DNA from: Neelides folsomi | Taxonomy: Eukaryota; Arthropoda; Collembola; Neelipleona; Neelidae | Assembly: GCA_034687125.1 (NCBI GenBank) | Contig: JAQGBZ010000103.1 | Location: 62,001-126,000, forward strand | DNA: 64,000 bases | Reading direction: 5' to 3' | Part shown: piece by piece, positions 22,503 through 64,000 of the stretch | Layout of the letters: every line of letters starts with the position of its first letter | Numbering within the stretch: the stretch's first letter is position 1 | Translations under genes and position numbers: made by a program | The notes under the pieces: generated by a model | Databases searched by the model: none | Told to the model about the DNA's origin: nothing | Seen by the model: the letters and a program-made list of their open reading frames with translations, nothing else

Positions 22503-23087
22503 ATCAGAGCTAAGGTCGTCGGTGGGAAATTGAAGGAAAGTCATCAAGAAGTCGTCGGCGTTCTCATCATCCCCAAACTCGTGGATTTCCTCGGTGAAAA
22601 GGAGCCATATAAGGTTGTGTATGAGAAGGCCACAAGGGAGCCAAAGACCCGTCCTTCCCTCTCTGTGGAGCAATAATGTAGAGCTAATTTGACCATTGTA
22701 CATTTCCGCTCTCGCGTGGGGAACTGTGTGAGAGCTCGTCGAGTGAGTGTGGGATCAATAGTGGAAAGAAGGAATGAGACCTTCATAATACAAGTCGAGT
22801 GAAAGACTCTTGCTAGTTTCTATATATCGGGGTGAGGGGAGACTCAAATTCGTGTGGAAGGAACAAGCGTTAAATCCTTCAATCTCGACTCTAATCCGTG
22901 GTTTTCCCTTTGGCTTTTCCCTGAGTGAGAGTGACAAGGAAAGGAGTGATATACTTACTATATCCCAACACACACATACACACCGCTCAACAACTCCCGG
23001 TGAAGTCGATGGAAGTCTTGAGTGACTCTTCCCATAAGTGAGCATAGGTATATCCCAAATAGGCTCTCAAGTGCCACTCACGTCAAG
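22503..23087 (+). other. bab: 5' UTR part of the first bab coding exon
   Basis: The acceptor TTTTTCATTGCAG ends at 22502, and the sequence turns GC-richer and stays open to splicing through the bab start at 23088, so this is most simply the 5' leader of that exon. It holds several upstream ATGs, including a start-stop ATG-TAG at 22676-22681. Directly after the acceptor a frame is open for 57 codons (22503-22673, TAA at 22674) with protein-like codon choice. That open frame has no ATG before it inside this exon. Confidence 0.6.
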
Positions 23088-40900: not shown

Positions 40901-43852
40901 GAAAATGTCCGTGCGAGTGTTTGTACATATTTTCAACTGGGGATAACGATAGGGTGTGAGATTAAAGGTAGATGACCATCTTGAATAATAATATGATAAT
41001 TATACTCGTACTGTTAAACTTTTAGCTTTATGAGAAAGGGATCGGGAAGTTGATTATGGTTATATGACGAATATTGAGAAATCTTATTCAAAGATTAATA
41101 TACAGGGACGACGCTAGTATTATTCATAATATGGTAATGAAGAGAAATATGTATAGTGGGATTTGGATTGTTACGTTAATTGTTGGGCTATATCAGGTTT
41201 AAGAAGTAGGGAAAGAAAGGATTATGATTATTATTATTATTTAACTACCCTCATCTTATCTTTATTATCAATGTAATAACCAGAGAGTTGAAAAATAATC
41301 AGCTATTAAATTATTCTTGCAGTGACTATACCAGGCCAACCTTACAATTAAATTCTCCATATATTATCTCTATATCCAACATTTATATGAACTAAAATAT
41401 ATGTATTGTAATTAAGATTGGAATATAGCTCCAATATTTATTAATTATTAATAATTAAATATATTTAATAATTGTAATAATTCTTCTACAATTGAAAAAA
41501 AACAATTCTTGTGTAAAAAAAATTACAAGAGTTTGATTCGCATGCATGAAAATTTCATTATTAAAATGTTATATATTTATTTAATGTCTGTGCTTGAGTG
41601 TCGTCGTCGTCTGTAATTACAATTAAACTACGTTAATTAAATAAATTATACATGTTAAAAAGTAGAGAGTAGAGGAATAATAATATTTAAAATATTGTAA
41701 TTTATTTCTTGGGAGGAGGAAGGAACTGGGCAAAGTTCTTTTGTGTCGTCCTCGTTCTCCCCCATTTCTGTATCTCATGGAGCCATACCATTAAAAATTA
41801 AATGTAATACCATAAAAGTAAATATATGCGAATGAGCCGTGGCGTCGTGGGACTCTTTTGTGTTGTAAATTACATATAATAATATTAAATAAATGCAAAT
41901 GCGCCAAGCCTGCATTATATTATAAAAATCTATTTACTCTCCATTTCCAATTTATTCCTCAGGTTCGACCCATATGAAATCATACGAGCGAGAGCAGGCA
42001 TACAAGTTTTACATATTAAGATAAATAATATATACGCCACATGCATAATGCAGCCATTTGAATATCGGCCCCGACCATTGTGAACATCAGAAGGAAGGAG
42101 TGTAAATTAATAATGAGGGGAAATGTATTCAGGCGCTCTTTTTCTATTAAAGAATGAAATATTAATAATATTTTTTATACGTGGGTCCCAATAGGAAATC
42201 TTAATTGGGAAATATAAAGTCCTGCATTAAATATACTTTTTTCATATAAAATTTTGCTTGCATAATACCTATTTATTTATATAATATCTACTATACAGAG
42301 ATATATTATTCATACAGAGACTTTATTTAAATGGATTTGATTAGACCTTGCATTTAAACATACCCATTTCATTTTCATATTTCTCACTCTTGAACCAAAG
42401 GGAATATTAATTATTCAATCATAGAATTTATTCAATATATAAATAATAATGTTGAGGGATTGCGTGGCCGAGTTTTTGAATAACTAAACTATTATTTAAT
42501 TTTAATATATTCATTTCCCAACTTTGCTCTGGGTCATAAATTTCATAAAGATAATTAAACTCATTTATTCTATTTATATTGTATAGGAGTGGGACGTCGC
42601 AGAGAGAAAATTACAAACATTATTAATTTTTTCATGAATTGCTCTAATGAATAATGATAGCAGTTAAACCTCCACTTTTATAAATCTTATATAAATTGGA
42701 TAAAGAAATTAAAATTATATATTCCCATCCTCGTAATTGCAAATCTCGTCCGGTTGTAGAATCCTTAGCCTCAATTCCAAAATATGCACGGGTGATCTCA
42801 AATCTCTCAATGACCTCAATCACCAAATTCCTCCAAAGGTATATGAAGTATCAATGAATATTTTCAAAGATGAATTTGATGAATCAATGTGTTTACATTA
42901 AACGTGAATCAATTCAAAGTTTAATCAGCAGTTAGCAGTTGCATAAACAGTAAAATACAACGGTTGTTTTTAATAAGAAGAACGTTGAAATTGAATCTCT
43001 TCACTTCCTTCCCCTCCATCTATTTATTACTATCCAAATAAACTTCATATTTTAATGTAAACTGTAAACAGTTAGATTTAAATATAGCCAGAGGAATGAA
43101 TTCTTGTATGAGTTGCATATTGGTACATGCACACGCAGAAGTATTTCGGATTTGTATTGGAGAATTCTCTGTGATGGGAAAGGAGAAGATCGAATAAATA
43201 TTTACAAGATTTTTTTAGTAAACCCTTCTTTATTTTTCTTCGTGTTTTTTCATCAATTGAACTGACGATAATGAATTGTGAGGAAATTATTTATGTTTTA
43301 TTTTTACGAAACTCAAAGCGTGTAAATAAAACGTGGCCTTAATTCAAAAATTAAACATTAATGATTTGATAGATTAAACACAATTATTTATTTATATTGG
43401 GAATTCGGAGTCTAATTGTAAATGAGGTTCAACTTTCAACAGAATATCATTAAATAAAAGGAACGTACCATCAAATATAATGCTTAAATGTGTGCAAATG
43501 ATAGGCATCAAAGATCAAACATGTCTCACGCTCACGAGCATTATGTGAGTATTTGATAATATTAAATAATATATATTATTTAATGGTATAAAATTATTAT
43601 TATTATATTATTTGTTTTTTACTATTTTTTCTGTATAATAATTTACTTAAAGAGTTAAATAATAAATAATTTCGTTATCAAATAATTAGAACAGGTTGAA
43701 TTTGAATTTTTCATGTAAAAAGTAATAAAAGGTAATCGCTTAGCATTGCATATTAAATTTTGAATATAATTCGGCAAATGTGAATCATCGTAAAAAGAGT
43801 TATTAATTTGTTAATCAAATGATCAAATGCACCAAATTCACCAACTGTTGTT

Positions 43853-43873
43853 AATAAATAAATAAATAAATAA
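43853..43873. repeat. (AAAT)n microsatellite
   Basis: Five tandem AAAT units in intergenic DNA. Confidence 0.85.
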
Positions 43874-44714
43874 TTTTTTAACTCAGGGCCTCACTGAAGG
43901 TTCAATGCCCTTATAAAAGACATTAAAGTTAAAGGAATTTCAGTGTTTAATTAATAAAAACCATCTGCTCTCCTCTCCTACGACGTACAATTAACGTAAA
44001 CGTAAAATGTATGTACATAATCAATTTCCTTTTAATTAATTAATTTATTATTTACCTTTATTTGTTTACCTTTGAGAACTGCTTGCTGTTAATTGCTTTT
44101 TGGGAAGGAAAAATCTGCTACGTACAACTTTTAATTATATTACCTAATATAGTTACTGTTAATTAAACTATAAAATCTTTATATCATTTTTACACTAAAT
44201 TATAACATGTTATACATATCTTGTAAAAAATGATTAATTATTCAAGATATTTAAAACTCAATACTTTATTAACGAATGCTTTAATACGATAATTATAGTA
44301 TACAATTTATAAAATAAATATTGATTTCCTCATATTGATTCGTTATTTTGAAATATATTCGTTTCCATTAAATGTCTGGAAAAATGAACGTTTATTTGCT
44401 TCAACTTTAAAACGTTGAATGTGATGTTAAATTTAAATTTAAATGTTATGTTAATTGGTCCTAAGATTTAAATTGATGATGAGGTTAAATGAGTGACGTT
44501 GAAAGGTAGATCTGGAAAGGAAAGATAAAAATTGAAGGTCTTTTAAAATGAAAAGAGCCGAGTGGAACTTGAGATTTGGCATATGAAATATTTCTCGCTC
44601 TCCACGTGTGGCGTAGATTGATCAGAACCAGATGTTAAATATTTTCTCTTCTTTTTCTTTCTCACAATCTCTTATCATTTTGAAGACCAAAATTGAGGAT
44701 CAAAAGTGACAAAA

Positions 44715-44738
44715 ATTGACCAATTGACCAATTGATCA
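44715..44738. repeat. Three tandem 8-bp units just before the SLC66A3-A start
   Basis: ATTGACCA, ATTGACCA, ATTGATCA stand end to end and finish three bases before the start codon at 44742. They lie in the 5' leader and could affect start selection or be a chance repeat. Confidence 0.7.
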
Positions 44739-44741
44739 AAA

Positions 44742-45730
44742 ATGGATTTATTAATTGACTTTTGTAATATTTCTACAATAATTGTTTGCTTTGTGTGCAA
44801 AGTTCCGCAGATTTTGACAATTTACAAGAGTGGGAGTATTGCCGGTATCAGTTTGGTCAGTATTTTTGTCGAACTCCTTGGGTGAGTTATTTTACTTAAT
44901 TTTTAATTGTTTAAAGACTTAAGTTTGACGAACCATCGAGGTATCTATATTTTATAATATTGAAACTTTTCATATTTAAATATTTATTTTAAATTGAGAT
45001 TGACATTTTGATTTTCAAGGTACACAATCGTCCTTTGTTACAATGTGTTCAAAGAATATCCATTACTGGCTTACTTCGAATATTCTCTTTTGGTTGTTCA
45101 AGACATCATTTTGATTCTTCTAATTTACAAATTAATGGGAAGATTGGACGTTGTAAAATTCGGATGTATCGGAGGATTCCTGGCTATTTTTTATTCATTT
45201 ATTCATGGAATTCCTCACTCGGCTATTTTGCCATTCTTAATTGTAGGTAAAATAAAATTTAATTTTTATACAACTAGTTAAGATATGCAACCTAATTATC
45301 ATTATAATTATGGATTTTTAATAAATTCTAGCAAATGGCAACTCCAATCTCAGCCTCAAGTAAAATCATCCAATTAAAAGAAATCTGGAGATCGAAAAAT
45401 TCCGAAAGTGTTTCAATTCTCACTTGGCTTATTTCTGCCTATACATGCATCAGTAAGTTGCGGAATGATAATCTTCCTATAATACAATATTTATTCATTG
45501 AAAATAATTTATATCATAAATTAAATAAATGATAACCGAGTTTAACTATTTTGTTTTATTTCTTAGCGAGGATCGTGACAACTGTGATACAAACTGGAGA
45601 TGTTGTGCTTCTAATGAATTATATCGTTGCTCTTGTTCTCAACGGACTCATTATCATTTCCGCACTCAATTTCAAAGGAAAAAAGACGAAATCGAAAAAG
45701 TCCACAGAAGCTAAGAAAAAGATTAAGTAA
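44742..45730 (+). CDS. SLC66A3: SLC66A3 (PQ-loop repeat protein 3), copy A
   Basis: A multi-pass PQ-loop membrane protein of the SLC66 family, related to MPDU1 and cystinosin. Its transported substrate is not established. Exons: 44742-44881, 45020-45242, 45332-45452, 45567-45730, in phases 2, 0 and 1, giving 215 aa (human about 202). Landmarks: the PQ dipeptide in KVPQI at residues 22-23, the YPLLAYFEYSLLVVQD..L block that closely resembles human SLC66A3, ISASSKIIQL, and AYTCITRIVTT followed by TGD. The C-terminus is a lysine-rich cytosolic tail. Exon 2 ends at an unusual GTAGGT donor; the nearby GTAAAA donor four bases on would break the frame. AATAAA signals lie at 45778 and 45889. It is the left member of a duplicated pair with 47934-48936 and is followed by a laminin-derived gene, as its partner is. 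Confidence 0.92.
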
Positions 45731-46215
45731 AGCGAATCAATCGCTTCCAAATATGCAATCGAATCAATCAAAATGACAATAAATAATGAAGTGCCAAATT
45801 CATTAGCAAATGTTATTTAATTACCTAAACTAATCAATTACCTTAAATTTATGTATTTAATTCCTAAGACATTAAAATGTGATCAAAGAATAAAGACTTG
45901 ATATGATGTGTCGCTTTCATATTACTAAATAATTTGCCTCTTTTAATTATTAACCAATTACATTCGATTCATTAATGGATGCTTTGCTGTTTGAAGTATA
46001 TATATATACCATATATTATAACTTAAATGATATCAAAGTGATGTTTTTCCTCTAACGCAATTTCATAAAACTTGAAGAGTTGTATTGGTAGAGTTAATCT
46101 CTCGAGGTGCGTCTCCCATATTGGTATTAATAGATTTAAAGTATTGGTTTAATGTGACACTTTTTATATCCTGATTGAAGATTTTAGTTGAGACATTCGG
46201 CCTCTGAAGGATTCA
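45731..46215. other. Spacer between SLC66A3-A and the mini-laminin
   Basis: The 3' UTR of SLC66A3-A, with AATAAA at 45778-45783 and 45889-45894, then the leader of the mini-laminin gene. The last 25 bases before the mini-laminin ATG (GAGACATTCGGCCTCTGAAGG) resemble the leader of the full laminin gene near 50281-50304. Confidence 0.6.
45889..45894 (+). terminator. Candidate poly(A) signal of SLC66A3-A
   Basis: AATAAA about 160 nt after the stop; a second AATAAA is nearer, at 45778-45783. Either could serve. Confidence 0.5.
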
Positions 46216-47173
46216 ATGGAGAAGATAATTTTGTTTTCAGTTCTTGGACTTTTACTCGTTTGCCAAGGTTCGTTATTTAACTTATTAGTGAGTTATTAAA
46301 ATACATACATATCATTAATGTGCATTTTATAAATGTAATAAAAACTTTAATTTATATGCATATTGAATTGCATTGAGAAATTATTATTGAATATACTAAT
46401 TTAAAAATATATTTTAGTATTTTTGTTATTTAGTCGTTATTTTGTGTAATTGATTGTTATTTATTATGAATTAAAGAAGTCCAAAGTCATTTGACTGTTT
46501 CGAACGGAAATTATCTTTGTGGTGAAAATGGCCAATGTAAATGTAAGGTGAATTTTGCTGGAACTAATTGTGACAAATGTGCAGAAATGTTTTATGATTA
46601 TCCTCAATGCAAACGTAATAAATATTCCAAATTAAATTAATTTCTTGATGATTTTTACTTAATTTGATTGTTAATTCAAAGTTAATGTAATTAATTCTTC
46701 TTGTATTATTAGCATGTAATTGCGACCCCAATAATTCATATTCGCTTTTTTGCGACCAAATTACTGGACAATGTGAATGTATGGTTGATTGGGCCTTTGG
46801 GGGTCGTCGGTGTAATCAATGTGAACAAGGATTTTACAATTATCCAACTTGTTTGGGTAAATATAATAAGACACTATTACATATTTAATAATAGTTTTAT
46901 AAGTAAATTTAACTAAATGATTTAATTATTTTCACATCTTTAGATTGTAAATGTGATCCATATGGGACTGAAGGAAATTGTGACAGCCAAACTGGAGAAT
47001 GTGTTTGTAAAGAAGGCTATGGAGGACCAAGATGTGATAAATGTTTACCGGCATTTCACCGCTACCCCGATTGCTGGCATTGTGATTGCAGCATGATTGG
47101 AACAGAATGTCAACCGAGAACAATCAGGAAAAATGTTCTCCAAGCTTTATTTACTTATTTTTGTGTTTTATAG
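46216..47173 (+). CDS. Mini-laminin: signal peptide plus laminin-EGF modules
   Basis: A small predicted secreted protein derived from the laminin alpha gene. Exons: 46216-46267, 46480-46614, 46713-46856, 46944-47173, all joined in phase 1, giving 186 aa. Exon 1 encodes a signal peptide, MEKIILFSVLGLLLVCQ, alike in position and residues to that of the full laminin. Exon 2 is a partial LE module (CGENGQCKCK...FAGTNCDKC), exon 3 a full LE module, and exon 4 a full LE module plus the start of another (CDCSMIGTEC). A 20-residue tail unlike laminin then ends at TAG. They correspond in order to exons 1, 8 (second half), 9 and 10 of the laminin at 50305. In exon 4 versus exon 10, I count 29 of 43 aligned residues identical. 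LamN, the other domains and the coiled coil are absent, so it cannot join a laminin trimer. The open frame and splice sites are intact. It may be a working gene or a young relic; expression is unknown. Confidence 0.82.
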
Positions 47174-47933
47174 ACTATATACACAATCACAGACAAAATT
47201 ACATTTAGATGCGAATCGGGCAAAACTGTTAAAGTTGAATAATAATAATTTAAATTACTTTTAATTTAAAAATATATTTGGATTTATTAATTTCATGCCA
47301 AATAATAAGAGTTAGATTTTAATTTGTTCTTTAATTTATTTCATGATATTTTTTCTTAAAACTAAGAAATTGTTTGTAATTTCATTTCAATCAGTTTAAA
47401 TTGAGACTTTGCTTAGATCCACCGATCGGAAACTGAAGTTTACAATATAGGGCTTATAGCCAAAACAGAAAATGAGAGTATTTTTTATTATATTTACCCT
47501 TTAGTTTATACAAAGATTTATGTTTCTGTAGTCTGAAAGTAGTAAAACAGTAAAAGAGATAGGGAAGGAATTTTTTTAGCTCTTCATGATTTGTCAACTG
47601 ATTTCTCTTTTTACACTTACAAAAGGTCTAATTTGATTCTAATGGGTTTTTACCACATCGCCAGAATGAATAAATGAATATGGAACGAGGTTTATGAGAT
47701 CGAGAGGTGCGTGGATGAATATTTATGAAAATCGTCAACCCCTCAACTTCTCATTTCCTCTCATTGTCTCTTTATTGCTTATTATACCAAGTTTAGTTGT
47801 GTTGGGTTGGTGTAAACTTGTGCAGCGTCCAGTTCCTGTTGTGTATTTACCAATGTCTAAATTAATCCCCTGATTTTAATCCGTTTAGGAAATCCATTAT
47901 AAATTGTAATTAAAAGGGAAATAAATAATTAAA
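47174..47933. other. Spacer between mini-laminin and SLC66A3-B
   Basis: About 760 bp, AT-rich, holding the mini-laminin 3' end and the SLC66A3-B promoter. The best poly(A)-like hexamer is far from the stop (an AATAAA near 47671). I see no remains of the missing laminin exons by eye. Confidence 0.5.
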
Positions 47934-48936
47934 ATGGGAAGTAGAAATCAATTTTTATTGCGGATGTTCTTTACATGGACGAGCATCGGGAGCGGATTTG
48001 TTGGGAAAATTCCGCAGATTTTTATGGTGGAGAAAACGAATGGCGTGGCGGGTTACAGTTTATTTGCAGTTTTTGTTGAACTTATAGGGTAATCTAAAAC
48101 CATTTACAAAACGTATCTAATATTTTTAACTTTAGTATTTTTATTTTATAATTATTATTATTTAATTTAATAGGCATTTGATATTTGTGAGTTTTCACAT
48201 TTTAAACAAATCACAACCTGCAGAATATTTTGGCCAGATGACATCATCCTTTCAGAATCTCGTTCTCATCTTCGTTTCTCTTTATTACCTTAATGAATTA
48301 AGTCCTGAAAAAATATTTCCAATAGTTGCTCTCATGGGACTTTTCTTTTTACACATTCTCGAGCTTGTTCCTTTTAATACACATATCTTATTTTTAATGG
48401 TAAGATTTGATCCATTACTATTTGCAATTTATATAATTGATTCAATGATTTATAATGTGATCATCTTTGTAATTCAATATTAATTTTGCTTTTTATAGAA
48501 ATTCACTGGATTGATATACAGTTTGAGCAAAATCATCCAAATTAATAAGATGTGGTCGCAAATGAATGCTGAATGTGTTTCTTTTCTTACATGCATAATT
48601 GCAATTTACGCAGATTTAGGTAAAAAACCAAATCAATCTTTAGAAAACTTTTCATATAAGGCAAAAAATAATAATGCTGATAAAATGTGTGGTAATTATG
48701 TATAGTATTTGTACTTTTATATTGGATTGCAATTTATCTTTTATTCTTTTAATATAATTTAAATTTCAGCCACATTGATGAATCTCACAATTTTACGAGA
48801 AGATAAAAAGAAGGGCGAATGTCCCATACAAATTTTCATTTCAATCGGACTCAACATTCTCATCCTTCTTTCCGCCGTTTATTTGCAAAAGCGATACAAA
48901 ACATTTGCTAGAAAAGCAGAGAAAAAAACTGATTAA
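47934..48936 (+). CDS. SLC66A3-like PQ-loop protein, diverged copy B
   Basis: A paralogue of the gene at 44742. Exons: 47934-48088, 48174-48399, 48499-48619, 48770-48936, giving 222 aa. Intron number and phases (2, 0, 1) and even the 121-nt third exon are identical to copy A, so common origin is secure. Retained features are KIPQI (PQ at residues 27-28), GYSLFAVFVELIG, SKIIQI..MW and several hydrophobic spans. The rest has drifted: the FEYSLLVVQD block is only weakly kept, and the AYTC-TRIVTT..TGD block of copy A is replaced by AIYADLGATLMN. The C-terminus remains lysine-rich. The frame is intact and splice sites are canonical. AATAAA follows at 48963. It is possibly neofunctionalised; if the function is shared with SLC66A3, it remains a membrane PQ-loop protein. 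Its neighbour is the full laminin. Confidence 0.82.
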
Positions 48937-50304
48937 AAAATCAACTCAATTCCAATCACTTAAATAAATAATGATATAAATATTCAACATATGTAATCCA
49001 TTTTGTAAAAGTATATAAATAATTCCATTGTTGTAAAATTCAAATTTTAAAATCTTCTAATCATATAAAACTAAAATACAAGAATGAATTAATAAATGAT
49101 TATTATTACAGTGCTTAATCTTGCTATATAAAATAGTACATGTATGAGAAATGTTATTTATAATATGTTTATAAAGTGTATGTTATTAATACAAATGGGA
49201 TGTTTTCCTGAGTTCAGTGTTTGATGGAATGGAATGGAAATCTTAAGAGTCCGAGTGTGTTTGATATACAGGATGGCAGAGATGTTTAAAGAAGCGAGGA
49301 GTGTCACAAGGAAAGTTGCTTGTGTGAGCCTACCAACTTGTTACATATAAAATTTCGCTGATAAGGTTCCAAAAGGGATCTGAGGAATCTCTTCCCATGC
49401 TCTAACATACTAATACATTCATAGTAATATACATACCTATACATGTATGTATGGTACATAGGTATACTGATAGTTATGGAGAAAAACATTTGGTCTTATG
49501 GTCAGTATATAATTCTTATGAACATGGTGGTAAATACACGAGGGATGGATGTTAAGATTTAGGTTATAAGGGGCCTTTGGACAAAAGGGTCTTTGGAGAT
49601 GAAACTTGAACTTTTTCATCGCCCACCTTGCCCTTTAGGCTCCTTCTCCCTTTTTCATCTCTTAAGGATGGGCGGATGGGCGAAGGTCGTTCCTTGGAAG
49701 ATCCACAGGGACCTTCTTCGACGACCCCTTACAAACATTCCCTTACACTTTCAACTGGAGAATCCAAGAATTGGATATGTCCATTCAGAACTGGGCTCTG
49801 TGTGTAGTTGGCTCTAACTCGTCTTTCTGATAACAACATCTTCATCTTCCTCCAACTTCCACCCCCACAACCACCAAATTTTATCTCTCACTGCCTTCGA
49901 ACATATTTAATATTATTCTCCAGCTCTCCAGACCCTCTCTTGATAAACTTACCCAGGAAAGTTCAATCCTCTATTCCTATTAAACAACATCCATAATATA
50001 CAAAGATACATACACACTCTTGGAAAGTTCAAATACTCTTTTTAATATTAATATAATACTTTCAGATAATATAACTAGACATTTATTTATTGGAATCGGA
50101 AACACATAGAGTGAATATATGGAAAGAGTTCTGAGATGAATTTGCGTGAGTGAATCATTGGTTTGGATGGGTCCGGTACAGTCAGTCTGTGGAAGAAACT
50201 TGTGAGTGTGTTTGGTCCACAATCAAATCCCAATTTCCCTTTTTATCCCTAAGAATGTGGAGGTAGTTGTGAGTGCTCAGGAGAACCTTCGACCCTTCGG
50301 AAGA
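48937..50304. other. Spacer and laminin promoter / 5' leader
   Basis: About 1.4 kb. It starts with the SLC66A3-B 3' UTR (AATAAA at 48963-48968). A GC-richer stretch at about 49590-49860 could be a promoter or leader exon of the laminin gene. The open frame there has no family resemblance. The region should hold the laminin promoter, but no core element stands out. Confidence 0.5.
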
Positions 50305-50523
50305 ATGGAGGGCCGAATTTTGTTCTCAATTCTTGGAATTCTCCTCGTGGGGCAAACGAGCCGTGGCGAGCAGAGGGTTTTGACACCGCCGTATTTTAAT
50401 TTGGCTGAAGGGAGAAACATCACGGCGACGGCGACGTGCGGGGAAGAACGGCGTGAACTTTATTGTAAACTTGTGGGTGCAAATTCTGATAATGATGTCA
50501 ATATTAATCTCATCCAGGGACAG
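50305..50523 (+). other. LanA: Laminin exon 1: signal peptide and start of LamN
   Basis: The start ATG at 50305 opens [17 protein letters not shown], a hydrophobic signal peptide, followed by the LamN opening ([12 protein letters not shown], then TATCGEE). The upstream frame is open to 50206 but has only non-ATG starts in that stretch. This exon's first 17 codons and leader are matched by the mini-laminin at 46216. Confidence 0.9.
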
Positions 50524-53500
50524 GTAAAATTATTTTGAATAATTATTTAAGCATAATTTAATCATAATCACCAACACCATTACATAACTGTAATTTTAAG
50601 GATAATTTTAAGGATCATCATTAGTTTCATTAGATATGGGTAACGATATGAATTATTATGAAAAACATTAGCAGTTATGACTTTACAATTACCTTGAAAT
50701 GAACGGAAATCCGAGATAGATACAATGGTTAAGGATTCGAAAATCATGCAGGAAACAAACGTTGCATCATTTCACATGTTGGCACGTTTATGCAACTTTT
50801 ATATATCCGCGCGTTTGTTTGCCAATTTTAAGATTTAACAATGTTAGCCAAATAACAGTAAGATCTTGTTAAAAAATCATTTGAAAGTTGAATGCCTCAT
50901 GCAGATGTAACATTGGGTTCATATGTTAAGCATTTAAACAATTTATTATCTCATAGGGTCTGTATATAAAAATAATCCTTTTCCCATCCCGAATAAGTTG
51001 AGGAATGAATGGGGTTATATTTAATATCAACTTATGGTGCGTATAAATGATATAAAACTGTAGCGTTATAATTTATAACGTTACAAATGCTACTCGTTCA
51101 AAAGACAACTTATGCAAGTCTGTAGTGATAAGTTTTTTTTATTTATTCGTAGAAATATATTTAAGTTTTTAATTTGTTCAATAAATGAAAATTAATTTTT
51201 GGTCAATTCTAATAATTCATCAAGAAATTCTGTATCTAATAATTCTAATAAAATAATTTTTTAATTTTTTAGTTATTAAATGTTAATTGGAACGGTATTC
51301 AAAAAATATTTAGACAATTTAATATAATTTAATTTACTTGAAGGTTTGTGACTACTGCGACCTTTCCGAAGATGGACGAGATCATCCTGCAGCTAATGCC
51401 ATTGATGGGAGTGAAAAATGGTGGCAAAGTCCGCCGCTCTCAAGAGGAGTCAAATACAACCAAGTGAATCTCACTATCAACTTTGACCAAGTGAGAAATT
51501 TTTAAATACTTTGTTCCTTTTTATTGGGAAAATGTCAATCTAATTAGCTATTGAGGTGTCAAATAAGCATATGAAGAATGTTCTAACTTTGAAAGGAAAT
51601 GAACAATAATATAATTTTATTAATAATAAGACATGACATATTGATTATTAGCAAATTAAATCCCAATACACAAATTGTGACCTAATTTTTCAAAATCGCT
51701 TTTATTATTAATTAGGTTAATTAATGAAAAAATCAGTGGCATTTAAATGATTTTTTCCAATTTTAGGAATTCCATGTTGCATACGTTTTTATTACAATGG
51801 CAAATTCACCCCGGCCTGGTGTTTGGGTTCTTGAGAGGTCGAGCGATTATGGAAAGACCTACAAACCCTGGCAATATTTTGCAGAAACGCCTGGGTATTC
51901 AAATTATTCAATCTAAATCTAACAAAACCCACCAAAATTTCCATAATTTCAATTAAAAATTTAATTATGATCCATTAATTATAAATTGATTCGTTTATTC
52001 TTTTCATGAAGGGATTGTGAGAACTTTTTTGGTAAAGAAAGTCTTCTTCCGATCACAAGAGATGACTCGGTCATTTGCGAGACTCAATACTCAAAAATCG
52101 TTCCTCTAGAAGGAGGAGAGGTAAATTAAGTTTTTATCATTTATTCCAATTAATATTATTTAAAATTACTTTAATTGCTTAATCACTTAATCAATCAATT
52201 TAGATGCACTTTGGCTTTCGAAGAAAAATTTAATAATGTTTACAATGACAGATTGTGGTTTCTTTACTAAATAATCGGCCATCTTCGGAAGATTTCTTCA
52301 GTTCTGACGTTCTCCAAGAATGGACCAGAGCGACAAACATTCGGTTGAGACTTTTAAGGACAAAAACACTTTTGGGTCATTTGATGAGCGTTGCAAGAAA
52401 AGATGCTAGTGTCACAAGAAGAGTAATTCAACAAAAATATAAAAAATACATCGTACCGAAGCCTTTGGAATCTATACAATTTTCAATATAATATTCTATA
52501 TTAAAGTTTTATTAATTTATATCTTTCAGTATTTCTACTCAATCAAAGATATTAGTGTCGGAGGACGTTGTCGGTGCAATGGCCATGCAGATCTTTGTGA
52601 AATTGACGAAAGAGATCCTTCAAAACTTTTATGCAAATGCAAACATGGAACTTGTGGACCTCAATGTGAATCTTGTTGTTCGCCAATGTTCCAAAAAGCA
52701 TGGAGGCCTTCCACCAACACAAACCCTTTTTCATGCGAAGGTTCGTTTAAACTTTTAAATATTAAATATACTTAAATCAATTTTTCTAATAATTTAAAGT
52801 TTAATTCCATTTGGTGACGTTATAATCAATTAATGTAATTGTAGCTTGTAACTGTCACGGACATAGCAATGAATGTTATTACGACGAGGAAGTGAACAGC
52901 AATTCAACGTCTTTGGATGAAACTGGGAAATATGAAGGCGGTGGCGTTTGCTTGAACTGTTGGCACAACACTGAAGGAATTAATTGTCATAAATGTAAAC
53001 CTGGATATTATAGGCCGTATGGAAAACAACTTGATGCTCCTGACGTTTGTCAAGGTTTGAATTTGAAAACTTTTAAATTTACAAAGTGTAGATTTAGAGT
53101 TTAGCAATTTAGAATTAGAATTTTTTGTTAATTGTTTCTATTTATTTAAATGAAAATATTTTTAATTATGATTTTTTAAAAATATTTAGAATGCGTTTGT
53201 GATGACTTCTTCTCTACTGGAAATTGTGCCGAAGGATCCGGCCGCTGCGAATGTCGACCTGAATTTTTACCACCAAATTGTGACAAATGTAACTCGGGCT
53301 ATTACGACTATCCAAATTGCAAACCTTGTGATTGTCATTTCAATGGAACGAGAGACTCAGTGTGTGAAGTTGGCGGAGGTCAATGTCCATGCAAGCAGAA
53401 TTTTGCAGGAACGAACTGTGACAGATGCGCTGAGGGATTTTATAGCTTCCCTCATTGCAAACGTAATTTTTTGAAAATCCTCAAAATCCTATTTATTTAC

Positions 53501-56500
53501 ATACATTATTTTAATATAAAAATCTATAGTATAAGTACATATAAAAGCATTAAAGTTTGCAGAAGCATTTAACTTATAATATCTTTTAAAAATATCTATT
53601 TAATTTTTTAAAATTAAAATAGCATGCGAATGCGAAGACCTTGGCTCAGTTTCACCAGTTTGCGACCCAGATGACGGCCAATGCGAATGTGGAAATAATT
53701 ACGGAAGTCGACAATGCAATCAATGTGAAAATGGATATTTCAACTTTCCAACTTGTTCATGTAAGTTATCTGGAAAACACAAATCAAGCGAGGCAAAGGA
53801 TTATTGATAAAAAGCTAAACCTCAGGACGGATCTACTTTAAAATTAAGCTAAATTTCATTTAAAAACAAAAATATTATTTTATTAAACAACTTCTTTTAA
53901 TTTTTAAAGATTGCAACTGTGACGTTCGAGGAACGCGGGAAGGAATTTGTGACAAAGGAACGGGAGTTTGCCTCTGTAGGGAAGGATATGGCGGAGCGAG
54001 ATGTGATCAATGTTTACCGAGCTTTTATGGATATCCCGATTGTCGAACTTGCAATTGCAGTAGTGTTGGAAGTGCCACGACCATTTGTGACGCAACTGGA
54101 AAATGCCCCTGTCTTCAAAATTTTGCTGGAAGGGCTTGTGATCAATGTTATCCTGGATATTACAAGTACCCTGAATGTCTTCGTGAGTTTCATAAAAAAT
54201 TCTAAATTATTTAATGAACCCAAAGCTTCATTTTTACTAATTGGAATTTTTAACTTTTAAATATGATTTTTATTAAAATTGTTTTTTAGCTTGCGATTGT
54301 ATTCCTGATGGCTCAATGGGAGTTTCATGTGACGACGAAGGGAAATGTCAATGCAAATTGAGTTTTGACGGACTTCGGTGTGAAACTTGTAAAGAAGGAT
54401 TTTACAATTTCCCACTATGCGAAGGTTAGCAAATACACCCAAAAACGATTAACTTAGCTAAAAAATTATAAAGATTTATATTTTTTATTAAATATAAAAA
54501 TGTATAATTTACTATATGGAATAAAAGATGATTTGAATTTTTCAATTAGATTGCAATTGTGATCCTGCTGGAGTTGTTGAATCATTCAGTGGCTGTGGAG
54601 ATTCCCCACCTGGAGAACTCTGCCAATGTAAAGAACGAGCCCAAGGAAGAATTTGTAACGATTGTAAGCCTTTGTATTGGAATCTTCAACATTGGAATCC
54701 TCAAGGATGTGAAGGTAAGATTTAATTTAATTAATTTGATTTGACATTAAAATTAATTATTACGCACGGATGACAGTTATATCTATTAAGCATTACAAAA
54801 TAATTGTCATAATAGATTTATATTTAAGTATTAAATTCAACTTTAATAATATCTTAGATTGTGATTGCCATTTGCCTGGAATTCTTGGGGGTGTTCAAGT
54901 TTGTGAAGGTAAAAGCGGCCAATGCCCATGCAAACCTTCAGTCGGAAGCCGAAGATGCGAAGAATGTCAAGATGGATTTTACAATTTATTGGGCGAAGAT
55001 CTTCTTGGCTGCGAAGGTATTGATTATTACCTATTAATAATGTAGAAATCCAAGACCAGTTTCTAATCATAATATAATGTTTAAAATTTTTAATTAAATA
55101 AATAAAATTAAAGATTGTGGCTGTGATGTTGGCGGAGCTGTAAACAACGTTTGTGAGAAAACCACCGGCCAATGCACATGCCGTCCACGAATCACCGGTC
55201 AAACTTGTACAACTCCAATTAAAACTCATTATTTCCCTTCGCTCTACCAATTCCAATATGAGGCCGAGGATGGAAATACTCCGGCCGGCGGACCTGTACG
55301 TTTCGGCTATGATGAAAATGAATTCCCGGGTCATTCCTGGCGTGGTTATGCAATTTATTCCCAACTTCAACCCGAAACCCTTCATGAAGTTGAGATCGAG
55401 AAGTCTTCATTGTATCGGATTATTTTCCATTACCATAATCCTTCCGACCAGACCATTAATGGAGAAATCATCGTGACCCCCGATAACCCTAATGATGTTG
55501 AACAAAAGTACAAAGTTCGATTTGAGCCCAAGTCCAATTTCGTGACTGTTTCGACCGGCAACGTCCCATCGCCATTCGTCCTCAATCCTGGTCGATGGCA
55601 AGTTGGGATCAAAACAGACCAGCATTTATTCGTCGATTATTTCACACTCCTCCCGGCTGCATTTTATGAAGCTGCAATTCTCCAACAACGTGTCACTGCC
55701 CCATGCTTGCTAAATACAGAAGGAGAGATCGAACCTGATTCATGTTTGGCTTTAAAATATCCCTCGATTGATAAATTCGATTCGGTTTATGGAACAGAAG
55801 CTTTTAGAGAAGAAGGTGGAACGAAATTAGAACCGAATGAATTTTACCGGAACAGGAAAGTTCTCAAAGCTTTGGATGTTGACCAAAAAGAACTTTTAAT
55901 GCTTTCGCCCAAGCAGAAAAAGGTCAAGTTGGATTTAAGCATTAGCAAAAGCGGGAGATATGCAATTGTTATTGAATATTACACGCCATTTAAATCAAAC
56001 TTGACCAGCGTGAATGTTGAAGCGACTTCTAACAAAGGAACAGCTAAAGGAAAATCTTTAATTTACAATTGCTTACATGCAACTTTATGCCGCGATGTTG
56101 TCATTAACGAAGAGGGCGAAGTTGCAGTTTTTAAATTCGATCCTTCAATTGTAGCAATTGAACTTGAAGTCCCAGAAGACTCTGAAGAGAAAATCGTAAT
56201 TCAGTCAATCAGAGCAATTCCGTTGTTTAAATGGTCCTTGGATTACATCCGCCCCAAAGAATATTGCGTAATGGACAAAGGCATTTGCGCTCCTTCTGAT
56301 TATGACATTCCTCCTGAATCAACCAAAGTAGAGGCAGAAGCAAGCGTCAGTGAAGATCGAATCTATGAAGATGAAAACTACGGAGATAAGAAATTGGTCC
56401 AATTGAACAAAGACAAATCTTTAGAAATTACCGGACGGGTTCCATTCCCCGGTTGGTATTCTTTCCTGGTTCATTACCATCAACCTGACAATCCTGATTT

Positions 56501-59500
56501 TTCAATTGACGTCCTTGTCCAAAATGGCCAACACTATGAAGCCAAATTTCCTGTTGTACATTGTCCATCTACGGCCGGCTGTCGTGCTATTGCAACTCAA
56601 GATGACAAAAATGTCCGGTTTCATGTAAATGAAGAATTCTCTTTAAGCTTAAAGGGTCTTAAGACTGTTTTGATTGATTATGTCTTAGCTGTTCCTTCAC
56701 CTAATGAAGATTCAAGGGAAGTTATCCCATACATGGAACAAAGCCCTGCGGATGAAACTCGTCGATTTATTGCTGAATGTGGAAAAAGCCATATGCATAT
56801 TTCAACTGACGTGATTGGCCTTTGCAGAGACGCTGTTTTCTCTCTGACTACAGAATTTAACAATGGGGCTCTGTTTTGCGCTTGTGACAATCAAGGATCG
56901 AAATCTTTCCAATGTGCGGAATTTGGGGGTCAATGTCAATGTAAAGAGAATGTAATTGGGAGAAGATGTGAGAGATGTAAAACGATGTATTTTGGATTTC
57001 CAAATTGCAAACCTTGCGATTGTCCCTCGACAGCATTTTGCGATGAAAATACCGGGGAGTGCATTTGCCCACCAAGGGTCACTGGAGAAAAATGCGACCG
57101 TTGTATGGACAATACATATGGATATGATGCGCTGATTGGATGTGAGGAATGTGCTTGCAGTCCTTTGGGAGTTCAAGAAGGAAATCTCCAATGTGATTTG
57201 GAAAATGGAGCTTGCGAGTGAGAAAATTTTTTTAAAGATTTTTAAATGTAATTATGGGGTAATTGTTGAAACTTTAATTGATGATATTTTTAATCAGATG
57301 TAAGTCAAATGTTGTGGGAAGAAGTTGTGACCGTTGTCATGCTGGGTTTTGGGCTTTTCCATATTGCCAACTTTGCGATTGTGACCTCAGAGGAACAACC
57401 GGTGACATTTGCAATCAGGTGAACCATCGAATATTTAAATTAAATTAATTTATAATATGTTAATTATAAATCTTAAATCTCAGATGTAAGCACATGCATG
57501 TTTGTATTATATATTTATATCGTACAATGGTTAATTAAAAAATATTTTTTACTTATCATTTACCAGGAATCTTCTCAATGTTATTGTAAAGCGAATGTTG
57601 AAGGACGAAATTGTGAAAGTTGCAAAGCTGGGAGCTTCAACTTGGAAGAAGCAAATCCAGCCGGTTGCACCAAATGCTTCTGTTTTGGCAAAACAACCCG
57701 TTGCTCATCTTCACCTTATTATTGGACCGGAGCTTCGGCAGGGAAAAAACAATGGACAGCGGTTGGTTTTGACCCGAACAAAAGTGGAGCTTTGAGCGAA
57801 TCAAATTATGAAATCGAATTTGAGGAAATTTCATCCGAAGAGGCAGGAGATGATTTTGTCACTGTGTACATTCCAGAAGGGACAATTCCACTTGGAAATG
57901 AATCAAATGCTCTTTATTTCAAAGCTCAAATGAATCAAGTCAAAGGAAACTTTTTGGCATCTTATGGAGGGAAGTTGACCTATAGTCTTTTATCAGAACC
58001 TGAAGATTCGATTGACGCTGGTTAGGAAAAATATTAAACATTAAATCAATATCCATTTTTCATATTTAATTATAGGTGAAGTGCTTCAATAAACTTACTG
58101 TTTACTTAACTTTTACTTTAACTTACCTAATTTATTTTGACAGAAAGAGAAATTTATGGTGGAGCTGACGTAATTCTCGAAGGAAAAGATTTATCTGCTT
58201 CGACGACAATTCGCCTTCTTCATTTCACATTGGACCATTTGAATAAGGAAAATGTCATGAATATGAATTTGAGAATTATTGAGGAGAATTTTGATGTGAT
58301 GAGCGGAAACGGTGGACTTGTTGCTGCTACGAGAGAACAAATGATGATCGTCCTTAAAAATCTTGCGGCTGTTTATGTCAAAGCGTCTTATTTCAGTCGG
58401 ACGCGAGAAGTCAAGTAAGGACATTTAATTGAATCAAAAAATGTTTTTATGATATAAGCCATAAGAAAATGCCTTGTTCAATTGGTGTCAATCTTTAACT
58501 GACAATAATTAATGATTACCTAATTCATTTTCGGCATTTTCCTTTTCATCTAATAACTAAAGTCGAAGTTTTTGATTAATAAGAGACTAATAAGAATTAA
58601 TTTTTGGAATAATTACGACATCCTACATATTAAGATTTTTATGATTATAGACTATAATTAATTGTTACATGACGTTATAATTTAATTTCTTGTATTCAAA
58701 AGGCAGCATTTAAATGAATGTTAATGACTTCTTTTAAATCAAAAAAATATATTTTATGATTTTAAGTTTAATTAATTAAAGAGTTGAGTCTCGGATATAT
58801 TTTTAGCTGAATTTGCGGAATTTAGTTGATCTAAACCAAATGGAAAAGTCCCTAACTCCCTACTTTTCAAAGAGTTGATTGAGATTAAATAACCACATTT
58901 ACAAAAAGTAACAAAATTTACTATAAATATCCTCAAATTTCACGATTCATTAACTTTAATCATGGTTAAATTTTTGAAAAGTATGGAGATAAGAAATTAT
59001 AAATCATCATTAGCTTAATCAATGTTCCTTAATTCAGATTCGATATGCTTTCCAATATAATTTGCCAAAATTGTTGATGAGACGAAATGATTCCGAAATC
59101 CGGTTTCTAGGGATTTCCGGAATCGGATTCATTCACAGCATTCAGTTACTGGTTTTTTGTTAATTAGTATGTTAAATAAAGCCAAGTCTAACTTGAAAAA
59201 TAATTAAATATTTGGCAATTTTGATAATGAATACAACACAAAAATTATTAAAATATTCATAATTTAATCATTCTTTAATTGTTTAATATTTACTAGAATT
59301 GTTAATTATGTAATTTCAGATTGAGTTCGTTTGGCCTTGAAATTGGAAAGGATGAACATGGCGAAGAAGATAATCGTGCTCTATCCGTTGAACAATGTGC
59401 TTGCCCAAGGAATTACCAAGGACCATCTTGCGAAGAATGTGCACCCGGATACTTCAGATCAAATATGGGACCTTTCGGCGGATTTTGCATTCCCTGTCAA

Positions 59501-62500
59501 TGTAACAGTCATTCAGAAACTTGTGATTCTACCACAGGGATCTGCTCTGACTGTCGACACAGCACAACCGGAGATCATTGTGAAATGTGTGAAGTTGGAT
59601 ATCATGGGGATGCAACGCAAGGAACTGGAAAAGATTGTCTTATTTGTGCTTGTCCTCTACCAATGGCATCAAACAAGTAAAATTTACAACAATTAAATTC
59701 ATTTCATTCAAATTTTTATTAAATTTTTATTATGATGATGAAGTATGTATGATGATGAATCTATTGATAATGTTCAAAACAATTATTAATTTTTTTTGAA
59801 ATATTTAATTGGCAGTTTTGCAACAAGCTGTCAAGTTTCATCAGACGGTCAGGAAATCAGTTGTGATTGTCGAGAGGGATATTCTGGAGCCAGATGCAAT
59901 GTTTGTGCAGCGGGATATTACGGACGACCAGATTCGCCAGGTGAAACTTAAAAAACTTAATTAATTTTAATTAAATTTGTTAATTAAAATCATTTCGAGT
60001 AGGAAATAAAATAGCTAAAATTATCTTAAAAATGAACAATATAAATTTAAATGTTTAACTTTAAAATAATAAAATTTAATAGTTTGTTGAATATAAAATT
60101 CCTTATTGATTAAGTATAATTGAATTTCCAGGAGATTATTGTAAACCATGCGAGTGTTCTGGAAACATTGACGTTTTGGATCCCTATGCTTGCGACTCCA
60201 TCACCGGAGAATGTCTTCGCTGTTTGAACAACACCGGTGGCCCGACTTGCAACCAATGTGCAAGAGGATTCCACGGAGATGCAATTGAAATCAAAGACTG
60301 TCGAGCCTGCGACTGCAAAGAATGCGGAACAGAAGAATGTGACCATTTGAGTGGAGAATGTCGCTGTAAGCACAATGTAGTTGGAGCTACATGCGAACGT
60401 TGCGCTCCGGACCATTACGGAATGACAAGTTGCGAAAATGGTTGCGATTTCTGCGAATGTTCCATTGCTTCCATGTCCACCCAATGTAACGACGCCACCG
60501 GACAATGTCCATGCAAGAAAGGAACAACTGGACGAAGATGCGAAAGATGTTCACCGGGTTATTGGAACTACACAAAGAGCGGATGTCAATCTTGCGAATG
60601 CAATTCGGATTATGCCATTGGTGTCGGCTGCGATCCAGAAACCGGCCAATGTTCATGTCTCCCAGGGGTTGTCGGAGAAAAATGCGATCGTTGTCCTTAT
60701 AGATGGGTTCTTATTGAAGATCGCGGATGTCAAGAATGTGACAGTTGTCAACATCAGCTTTTGGACGACACAGATAAAATGTCAGCGGATCTTAATCCAA
60801 TCATTGAAGATTTCCAATCCGTAGCTGTGAGTTATTTCACAACACAGAAATTGTCATATTTCAATAAAACGGCAAATGAACTTGAACCTGAAGTTCGTCT
60901 TCTTGACCCGAACAAAGTTAATTTGTATCCTTACACCCAAGCCATTCTCATGTTAGAAGCCGATTCAAAATCAGGGAAACAAAGAGCAGAAGTTACATCG
61001 GACAGTTTGGCCACAAAAGCACTTGCAGCGACGGGTTTAAGGGAAAAATCAATTGAGGTTGAATCGAGAGTTCAAGAGGCTGTTGCAAGGGCTCGAACTG
61101 CTGTATTTGAAACGAAGGATTTAATGGAGGGATTAACTGCTATTAAATTCACAAATCCATCAACAGACGCTGCAATGACAGAAGCTCAAGGAATTGTCGA
61201 ATCCATGCAACTTAAATCTCCAAGTATTGAAGATGCCCTTAATAAGGAAAGAGAAATTGCGGAAAAGACTTTAGAAGAAGTGAAGGAATTTTTAAAACCA
61301 CACACCGCTATGCAAGAAAACATCAAAAAGGAAAAAGAACGTGTGGAAAATGCTACTTTTAAAATGGCAGATATTGGAACTCACATCGAAAATAGTTTAA
61401 AAGTGAGCCGGGAGGCTCAAGCCATTTCGAATAAAATCAAAGAAGGGAAATACGATTCAAAGATTAAATTCCTCGAGCAGAAAATCAAAGAAACCGAAGA
61501 AAATATTGCAAATGCAACTGCCATGAACAATCAAACTCCTGATAAAATCAACGAGTTGAGAAGTTTGTACGACGAGCTTGGAACCTTTTTAAACAGTGTT
61601 AAAGAAAGCAAAGAACCTTTAGAGCAAATGATGGACACTTTGAAAAACGAATTGGAAAATAACGTTGACACAATTAATCTTAGTCAAGAGCATGTGCGGA
61701 AACTACGAAACGAAGCCAATGGTTTAGAAGCAATGATGGCAAAAACAAGAATTGTTTCAGACAACGCAATTACGGCTGCGACATCCTATCAAAAAATAAC
61801 AACGGCTCTTGAAGAAGCCGAAGCGTCTGCGGACAACGCAGACAAAGCGGCGGACGACACAAGTCAGATGACAAGTTCTATTGGAGAATTGGCCGCTACG
61901 ACACAACAACCTTCGCAGAATTTGTTAGTTTTGGCTAACCAATCCTTAGCCCAGGTCGATGCAGATTTGCGGATTCCTCTCAATGGAGCTAAAATGGACA
62001 TTGATGAAATTGAGGAATTGAATAAAACCATGGTCGTGGCTTTGAATAATATTCATAAAAATATGGACAAACTTTCTGGACCAAGAGACCTTTCAGATAT
62101 TCACGATGCAATAGTTATTTCAACAAATGGGGATTTAAAAGCAGATGAAGCGTTGACAAGCGTTGAGGAAATTTTAGAAAAATTGCCTAAGAGCCACGAA
62201 GATGCGCGCAAATTGCCAGTTACAATTAAAGACCTCAATAAAGGCTTGGCAATTTCTGAGACACAACTAAAACAAGCGAAGGAAGCTGTGCCATTCTCAG
62301 CAGCCATTACTGGGAATCTCGAATCGAAAAAACCAAAATATGACAATTTGAAATCACAAATCTCGGATAAGATGTCAGACCTTAAAGCTAAAATTGCATC
62401 TGCGAGAGAACAAGCAAATCGAATTCCTGTTGGAATGAACTTGCAAGAATCTTCATCGCTTCTTATGGCAAATCCTACGAGCCTGGAATCCCAACAGGCA

Positions 62501-63867
62501 CAAACTAAAGTGGCACTCCATTTCAAAACACAGGAACCTTCTGGGCTTTTACTCTTTTTGGGAAATGAGCCTGGACGAAAGAGTGAAGATGATTTTATGG
62601 CTCTTGAAATAGACGGTGGTTATCCGGTCCTTACGATTGATTTGGGCTCAGGGCCACAGAAAGTTTACAGTGACCAATTTGTTGCGGATGATAAATGGTA
62701 CAAAGCGACGATCGACAGATCGGGGAAAATGGTCCGATTGACTGTTGCACAAGATTTCCAGAATGGGTCCATTGTTGAAAGCACCAAAGAGGAATATTTA
62801 TCTGGACCTAAATCATTATTGAATGTGAATCAAAACGCGTCTAAAATTTATGTCGGCGGATATCCTGAAGAAGAAACGCGCCCCAATTTAGTGAGATCTA
62901 CAACTTACCGTGGGGCCATTGAAGGACTGGAAATTGGAGATGAAAAAGTTGGACTGTGGAATTTCAAACAAGGAGAAAATCTGGCTCCTGCAATGGAAAA
63001 GTAATTTATTATAATTCTACTTTAATTTTAATGCAGACAGCTTTAACCTCTCTCTTTTATTATCCTTGGCTTTAACGAAACATGTTGCAACTGTAACTTA
63101 CTAATATATTATTAATTTAATTTTTATTATTTTAATTTATATTTTTTTCATGGTCGATGTATTAAAAATTATTATTAAAAAATATATTTTCTGTCTGTAT
63201 CAGTCTGTATTCATTTTAATTTAACAATGAATTTATTTATTGTTTTACAGGGATATTTTCTTGGATTCAAAGACAGAGTCAGGATTGAGATTCCAAGGGA
63301 GTGGTTATGCCGTAATGGACAGAAATAACATCCCATTCAAAACTCGTTCCAACGTCCGGTTGAAATTCCTCACAAGAGCCAAAAACGGTCTCATCTTCTT
63401 AGTGGGAATGGGACGGAAATTCATGTCGCTTGAAATCATAAATGGAATGGTCATTTATCAATATAATCTCGGCGGTGGTCCTGTAAGGGAATCTTCTCGA
63501 AGGGCCTTCAATGATGGCAAATGGCATCAAGTAGAAGCTGTAAGAGAAAAGAGATACGGAGTTTTGAGGATTGACGGAGAAGAAGTTGCTCGAATGGAAA
63601 GTCCCGAACCGCATTCGTTATTAGCAGTTTCCAATTACATGTATTTCGGAGGATATCCCGGAAATCATGATTATCAAACTGTGACCAATAAGGGATTCGA
63701 GGGATGTATTGACAAAGTGTTGGTTGACAATGTTCCAATTGAGTTGACTCAAGCTGCAGAAGCTCGTTATACCGTTCTTGGATGTCCGGCTTCTTTTGGC
63801 CCAACTGTGGCAACTTTCACTGGGAGTGGTTTTATTAAAGTGAAATCGGAAGATTCTCCAACAAGTG
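50305..63867 (+). CDS. LanA: Laminin subunit alpha (LanA, alpha-3/5 type), 3' end outside the window
   Basis: A secreted basement-membrane subunit that trimerises with beta and gamma chains. Twenty-one exons: 50305-50523, 51344-51490, 51767-51894, 52012-52120, 52252-52422, 52530-52740, 52845-53054, 53190-53462, 53623-53760, 53910-54182, 54290-54424, 54550-54714, 54858-55016, 55114-57217, 57298-57418, 57567-58020, 58144-58414, 59320-59676, 59816-59940, 60132-63000, 63251-63867. Phases agree throughout, giving 3085 aa so far. Order: signal peptide; LamN to about 270 ([25 protein letters not shown]); LE repeats; an L4b-type domain about 812-1365 ([15 protein letters not shown]); LE; L4a about 1575-1775; LE to about 2125; coiled coil about 2130-2710; LamG1; LamG2. 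The CGCDVGG..CRPRITG lead into the L4b-type domain marks the alpha-3/5 (LanA) class rather than wing blister. Further LamG domains should follow beyond 64000. LE exons 7-13 all run phase 1 to 1. Confidence 0.97.
50524..51343 (+). other. Laminin intron 1
   Basis: An 820-bp AT-rich intron with donor GTAAAA and acceptor CTTGAAG. No nested gene or repeat is recognised. Confidence 0.8.
58415..59319 (+). other. Laminin intron 17, the longest in the visible gene
   Basis: 905 bp between L4a-encoding exons, with donor GTAAGG and acceptor AATTTCAG. No open frame of note; phase 2 is preserved across it. Confidence 0.85.
60746..62470 (+). other. LanA: Laminin coiled-coil (domains I/II) coding segment
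   Basis: Part of the single 2.9-kb exon 20. After the last cysteine-rich LE module ([12 protein letters not shown]) the frame becomes cysteine-free and rich in Lys, Glu, Ala and Leu for about 575 residues, the heptad-forming rod that wraps with beta and gamma chains. LamG1 begins shortly after, near 62490. Confidence 0.85.
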
Positions 63868-64000
63868 GTAATTTGACAAAAAATTTGATGCAAAAAAATA
63901 ATAATACACAATATTGCAAATCTAAAATTTCCAATCATTTAATTTAAATAATATTAAAATAATGAATATTGTCTTGAAATTGATAGTTTTTATATTTGCT
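63868..64000 (+). other. Start of the next laminin intron (truncated by window)
   Basis: The donor GTAATTT follows exon 21 at 63868. The sequence to the window end is AT-rich with stops in the laminin frame, so the gene continues to the right. Confidence 0.8.

Follow-up and report, generated by a model that had tools for sequence, protein, structure and literature searches.

A short gene of laminin LE modules, probably retained after tandem duplication, upstream of a laminin alpha gene in the springtail Neelides folsomi

Upstream of a laminin alpha gene of Neelides folsomi lies a short frame in four exons that resembles the 5' part of that gene without most of its domains. This raises the question of whether such a mini-laminin is a relic of a duplication or a gene still held by selection. 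The window, meaning the whole stretch of DNA analysed here, comprises 64,000 nucleotides (C103:62001-126000, in the numbering of contig JAQGBZ010000103.1) of a 75.1 Mb genome in 840 contigs, in which a DNA search found the mini-laminin locus once. The features discussed below are collected in Table 1.

Table 1. Position and content of the mini-laminin, its neighbours and the parent laminin alpha exons (window coordinates).
Feature	Position	Strand	Content
PQ-loop gene copy A	44742..45730	+	precedes the mini gene; 4 exons; Pfam PQ-loop
Mini-laminin locus	46216-47173	+	4 exons, frame of 187 aa plus stop
Mini-laminin exon 1	46216..46267	+	start codon, signal peptide MEKIILFSVLGLLLVCQ, phase-1 donor
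Mini-laminin exon 2	46477..46614	+	one LE module, LE4-like, possibly an LE3/LE4 hybrid, 6/8 cysteines
Mini-laminin exon 3	46713..46856	+	LE5, 8 cysteines; best match parent LE5; above Pfam cut-off
Mini-laminin exon 4	46944..47173	+	LE6 (8 Cys), truncated LE7 start, new tail
PQ-loop gene copy B	47934..48936	+	precedes the parent laminin; 4 exons; Pfam PQ-loop
Parent laminin alpha	50305..64000, continues past window	+	LamN, LE arrays, coiled coil, LamG
Parent exon 7 (LE2)	52845..53054	+	may have supplied the donor end of mini exon 1
Parent exon 8 (LE3+LE4)	53190..53462	+	
Parent exon 9 (LE5)	53623..53760	+	
Parent exon 10 (LE6+LE7)	53910..54182	+	

At the level of gene structure, the original prediction of an intact open frame with a signal peptide and four splice-compatible exons was borne out. 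The exons join at GT/AG borders into a single uninterrupted frame with all three introns in phase 1, as had been proposed, and the product has 187 residues plus a stop rather than the 186 first counted. The stop codon (TAG, 47171-47173) lies in exon 4. All three donors and all three acceptors fall inside the leave-one-out score range of the neighbouring introns (14 donors and 12 acceptors), and the first acceptor is the top-scoring among 9 AG (5.2; runner-up 2.0). The first donor, with 7.8, is the highest among 16 GT, a value inflated by the identical 9-mer of parent exon 6 that sits in the matrix; once this shared 9-mer is left out the score is 5.5, and the GT at 46288 scores 5.9. The donor motif TGCAAAC/GTAAT, predicted to be common to both genes, does end mini exon 2 as well as parent exon 8. 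Beyond the frame, the first AATAAA among the polyadenylation-type hexamers scanned is found at 47669, 496 nt past the stop, and upstream of it only the variant AATATA occurs, at 47271 and 47444.

Concerning the encoded protein, the Pfam family EGF_laminin (PF00053) matches it in three stretches (E 2.7e-24, 85.5 bits against a cut-off of 21), and each of the three LE modules passes that cut-off alone (29.4, 38.9 and 39.8 bits). It is the sole family above cut-off, the remaining matches being to EGF-type families and to one sub-threshold signal-sequence model. The claim that the product would have neither LamN, coiled coil nor LamG agrees with the frame and with Pfam: Laminin_N is absent from the matches to the 187-aa protein at E<=10, the frame ends at 47173 and Pfam lists no coiled-coil domain for trimerisation, and no LamG is present in the translated frame or among the Pfam matches. 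Consequently, the mini protein should neither polymerise nor trimerise. LE5 and LE6 have eight cysteines each and the exon 2 module has six, being without Cys 1 and Cys 2; of LE7 only the first three cysteines remain, and one further cysteine lies in the tail. After cleavage, which is estimated to occur behind VQS, the mature protein would probably have 166 residues and an even number of cysteines, 26. The notion that LE modules had been excised cleanly is in line with the phase-1 junctions but is doubtful in view of the two cysteines missing from the exon 2 module and the truncation of LE7.

The relationship to the laminin alpha gene was examined exon by exon. In the parent pieces scanned, Pfam recognises Laminin_N, EGF_laminin, Laminin_II and Laminin_G, and by-eye judgement places more LamG-like frames of this gene beyond the window. 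Exon numbers 8 to 10 follow the numbering of the original prediction, parent exons 3-5 being only partly modelled. Among the 16 parent LE modules included in the comparison, a part of the parent's full set, the mini exon 2 module scores best against LE4 (140; next LE3, 119.5), mini LE5 against parent LE5 (138.5; next 124.5) and mini LE6 against parent LE6 (178; next 116). Support for the mini/parent sister pairs in a tree of these modules ranges from weak to fair (0.838, 0.656 and 0.208). Mini and parent modules differ in net length by whole codons (-1, +2, -1), and the frame stays open in both. At the DNA level, exon 2 matches parent exon 8 over 90 nt with 76% identity, exon 3 matches exon 9 with 64% (BLASTN), and exon 4 matches exon 10 over 133 nt with 72%. 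The signal peptide is identical to that of the parent at 12/17 residues (0.71), and when the exon 1 region is aligned locally at the DNA level, 0/300 shuffles reach the score; this alignment extends about 25 to 30 bases upstream of the ATG, and the 5' UTR alone shows no significant likeness to the parent (50/300). A by-eye match between the remainder of LE7 and the mini tail is not claimed, the alignment of the exon 4 tail to LE7 being not significant (231/300 shuffles as good). The parent laminin alpha appears as the source of the signal peptide and of LE4-LE6, and the mini protein does without the LamN, coiled coil and LamG of the parent. The proposed correspondence to parent exons 1, 8 (second half), 9 and 10 is upheld by the best matches of LE4, LE5 and LE6 and by a collinear BLASTN series, and may need revision at the borders of exons 1 and 2. 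Parent exon 1 continues into LamN and ends in phase 0, so that the donor of mini exon 1 differs from that of parent exon 1.

The surroundings of the locus suggest how it arose. PQ-loop gene A, the mini-laminin, PQ-loop gene B and the full laminin alpha follow each other in this order, all on the + strand and collinear. Genes A and B have three introns each, at matching places and in phases 2, 0 and 1. When positions 43000-47800 were compared with 47801-64000 by BLASTN, a collinear series was obtained, standing among many low-scoring chance matches, from A to B (two weak pieces), from the signal peptide to parent exon 1, and from exons 2, 3 and 4 to exons 8, 9 and 10. The locus appears to be what remains of an old tandem duplication of a PQ-loop gene together with the 5' part of laminin alpha, which is the simplest account of this arrangement. 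The duplicated PQ-loop neighbour, which formed no part of the earlier finding, indicates the origin of the mini-laminin; because A and B share only 28% identity, duplication as a single block rests on gene order and intron places. This tandem pair (44742-48936) is strongly diverged over its 213 aligned codons, with intact frames in both copies. Searched against the whole genome (E<=10), copy B matches, apart from itself, only copy A, through two weak pieces with E 0.0016 and 0.034, and a PQ-loop family search of the genome gives 7 matches on five contigs. The mini protein has 23 matches in the genome, of which only the three of its own locus fall below 1e-20, the next (6.7e-16) being parent LE6. 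In a genome search for LN, matches on this contig begin at contig position 112383, in the parent. Elsewhere in the window, GC-richer stretches of the + strand carry a BTB/POZ-domain frame of 339 aa (23022-24038) and two long overlapping frames of 242 and 273 aa (36978-37974) with no Pfam match at E<=0.01; at gathering threshold, the window has 0 Rfam matches, and 0 tRNA genes were found there. The genome further contains 28 TTAGG repeat matches and 39 cuticle chitin-binding matches, which together with its odorant-receptor matches give it an insect-like character. Its odorant-receptor and ML-domain matches number at least 3 each (exon-wise counts and lower bounds), possibly reflecting a reduced chemosensory set.

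Two accounts of the borders of exons 1 and 2, both drawn from sequence comparison, are near even. In the fusion account, the donor end of LE exon 6 or 7 may have been attached to the signal peptide to form exon 1, and exon 2 may be an LE3/LE4 hybrid. Alternatively, the end of exon 1 and the start of exon 2 may be new splice sites or other break points located, as the original map implies, within exon 1, intron 1 and exon 8 of the parent. This second account has a chance just short of one in two, concerns structure only, leaves the product unchanged and does not exclude other explanations of the locus. Against new sites stands the likeness of the mini exon 1 donor (GTTTGCCAAG/GTTCGT) to those of parent exon 7 (GTTTGTCAAG/GTTTGA) and exon 6 (CATGCGAAG/GTTCGTT), which tie at 13/17 each over 17 bases in register. 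When the 16 bases round the mini donor were searched for at >=13/16 in the whole window and on both strands, each of two offsets gave one other place, and these two places are the donors of parent exons 7 and 6; at 12/16, the first offset gives 8 other places. The junction codon of mini exons 1/2, GAA, is also that of parent exons 7/8, and the start of exon 2 fits LE3 slightly better (P 0.017) than LE4. Parent exon 8 measures 273 nt and mini exon 2 138 nt, a difference of 135 nt (45 codons). In favour of new sites, the DNA alignment to parent exon 1 reaches CAA, one base short of the mini donor, the start of exon 2 aligns to LE4 too (P 0.07), and mini intron 1 (46268-46476) is similar to the 3' part of intron 1 of the parent (50524-51343). 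This last comparison scores 80.5, a value reached by 2/500 single-base shuffles and by 0/157 controls (maximum 75.5), the controls being AT-matched real segments of the window, 820 bases long, from both strands and, for the + strand, from outside 46000-54300. As one of five intron comparisons, each with 500 such shuffles, it is weak evidence, and it is not fully explained by either account. Parent introns 6 and 7 bring no help to the fusion model, with 324/500 and 70/500 shuffles as good. No significant similarity was obtained between the rest of parent exon 1 and mini intron 1 (256/300 shuffles as good) or between the sequence upstream of exon 2 and the first half of parent exon 8 (80/300).

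Whether the frame has been held by selection was addressed with the 125 LE codons that align between mini and parent, whose identity is 0.68 in nucleotides and 0.60 in amino acids. For these codons, omega is 0.205 (dN 0.31, dS 1.54; kappa fixed at 2), a pairwise estimate that hence includes the parent branch. Over all LE codons taken together, an omega of 1 is rejected (2dlnL 34.9), a dN/dS near 1 having been named in advance among the refuting outcomes; against an omega of 0.5, 2dlnL is 10.9. Had the mini branch been neutral throughout, with half of the total dS, a pair omega of about 0.5 or more would be expected, which the profile disfavours. Taken separately, the LE4 half has an omega of 0.107 (2dlnL 14.9) and LE6 one of 0.119 (21.7); for LE5 (0.446, 2dlnL 3.75) an omega of 1 is narrowly not rejected, and the signal peptide value (0.257, 2dlnL 1.99) is not significant. 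Purifying selection after duplication is observed when all LE codons are considered together, but neither LE5 nor the signal peptide shows it individually. In addition, all 22 aligned parent cysteines are kept in the mini-laminin, 8 of them with a changed codon, compared with 11/18 glycines and 53/103 non-cysteine residues. Under neutrality, the probability of keeping 22/22 is 5e-2 at d=0.05, 3e-3 at 0.1, 1e-5 at 0.2 and 4e-17 at 0.77, a test that omits the two cysteines missing from the beginning of the exon 2 module; with both counted, at least 22/24 would be kept with a probability of 6e-2 (d=0.1) or 6e-4 (d=0.2). These probabilities limit neutrality to a small final part of the mini branch. 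Introns 2 and 3 of the mini-laminin are without homology to introns 8 and 9 of the parent (477/500 and 354/500 shuffles as good); the possible likeness of intron 1 to its parent counterpart means that some non-coding sequence is perhaps still recognisable. Since kept cysteines, a low omega and diverged introns are unlike a neutral relic, the mini-laminin is best read as a retained protein-coding gene, which we consider probable.

Loss of Cys 1/2 from the exon 2 module and truncation of LE7, as in decay, speak against retention, as does the distance from the stop to the first AATAAA, and other readings of the locus compete. The duplicate could have been functional for most of its history and have lost its function or expression recently, its frame having yet to decay. 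The incomplete first module and shortened LE7 are compatible with this, and after about 0.05 neutral substitutions per site all 22 cysteines would still be present in 5% of cases; nevertheless, 187 codons without stop or frameshift, together with splice sites that all lie within the range of neighbouring introns, make a recent loss unlikely. That the locus is a neutral pseudogene fragment, its frame open by chance, would suit a partial and truncated duplicate but is very improbable given the rejection of an omega of 1 and the retention of every aligned cysteine at a dS of about 1.5.

A different possibility is that the locus serves as an alternative 5' end of laminin alpha, a transcript from the mini promoter splicing over gene B to an LE exon of the parent and yielding a LamN-less alpha chain, as passages of PMC9788559 describe for vertebrate alpha3A, which arises from an additional promoter. 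The mini introns are in phase 1 and so are parent introns 8 and 9 (counting the two leading bases of exon 8), so that joining would preserve the frame, and a GT with a donor score of 3.5 lies at the LE6/LE7 border (47082). Yet exon 4 terminates in a stop, its best GT (4.3) falls inside LE6, and gene B stands in between. The conservation of LE6 (omega 0.12) indicates that exon 4 is probably used, which also counts against this reading, and we regard it as improbable, more so than a recent loss of function.

The preferred reading remains that of duplication, deletion and retention by selection as a small secreted LE protein, which is likely, its transcription, secretion, folding and binding being predicted. 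A tandem duplication would have copied a block made of the PQ-loop gene and the 5' part of laminin alpha, reaching at least from exon 1 to exon 10. The copy would then have lost LamN and the first LE modules through deletions, with the frame stopping early in LE7, and the signal peptide, the LE4-like (perhaps LE3/LE4 hybrid) module, LE5, LE6 and the tail would have been held by selection. Its most likely role, judged by analogy, would be that of a soluble LE rod that occupies a site for a partner or receptor of the laminin alpha short arm.

Comparison with known systems helps to place such a protein. According to passages of PMC9788559, assembly of the laminin network depends on LN, and the mini-laminin, being without LN, should not enter the laminin polymer. 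The same passages describe netrins as laminin-related proteins with LE repeats that, like the mini-laminin, are unable to trimerise, and LaNt alpha31 as a product of intron retention in a laminin gene that retains the LN domain. Netrins and LaNt carry LN (Laminin_N) whereas the mini-laminin lacks it, and, unlike LaNt alpha31, the latter is encoded by a separate duplicated stretch. A further parallel is the domain III fragment of laminin gamma2, a ligand of EGFR (Schenk et al. 2003, as cited in PMC4740388), in which free LE modules may likewise act as a signal; this fragment is a proteolytic product of a gamma chain, and the mini-laminin would have a gene of its own. That the locus is a gene devoted to a soluble laminin protein of LE modules only, and so the gene-encoded counterpart of proteolytic laminin fragments, is a tentative proposal, with about one chance in three. 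In the open-access papers searched, as judged from titles, the beginnings of abstracts and passages of PMC9788559, no laminin gene of this shape was found.

Surviving partial tandem duplicates are not rare, and what seems unusual is a selected laminin derivative consisting of LE modules only. If the proposal of a gene-encoded counterpart is correct, it would add a further route to short laminin-family proteins beside netrins and LaNt, and the mini-laminin would regulate basement membranes or receptors in this lineage. A selected protein of LE modules alone would suggest a separate function for these modules, and the mini-laminin would provide a small natural reagent for finding it.
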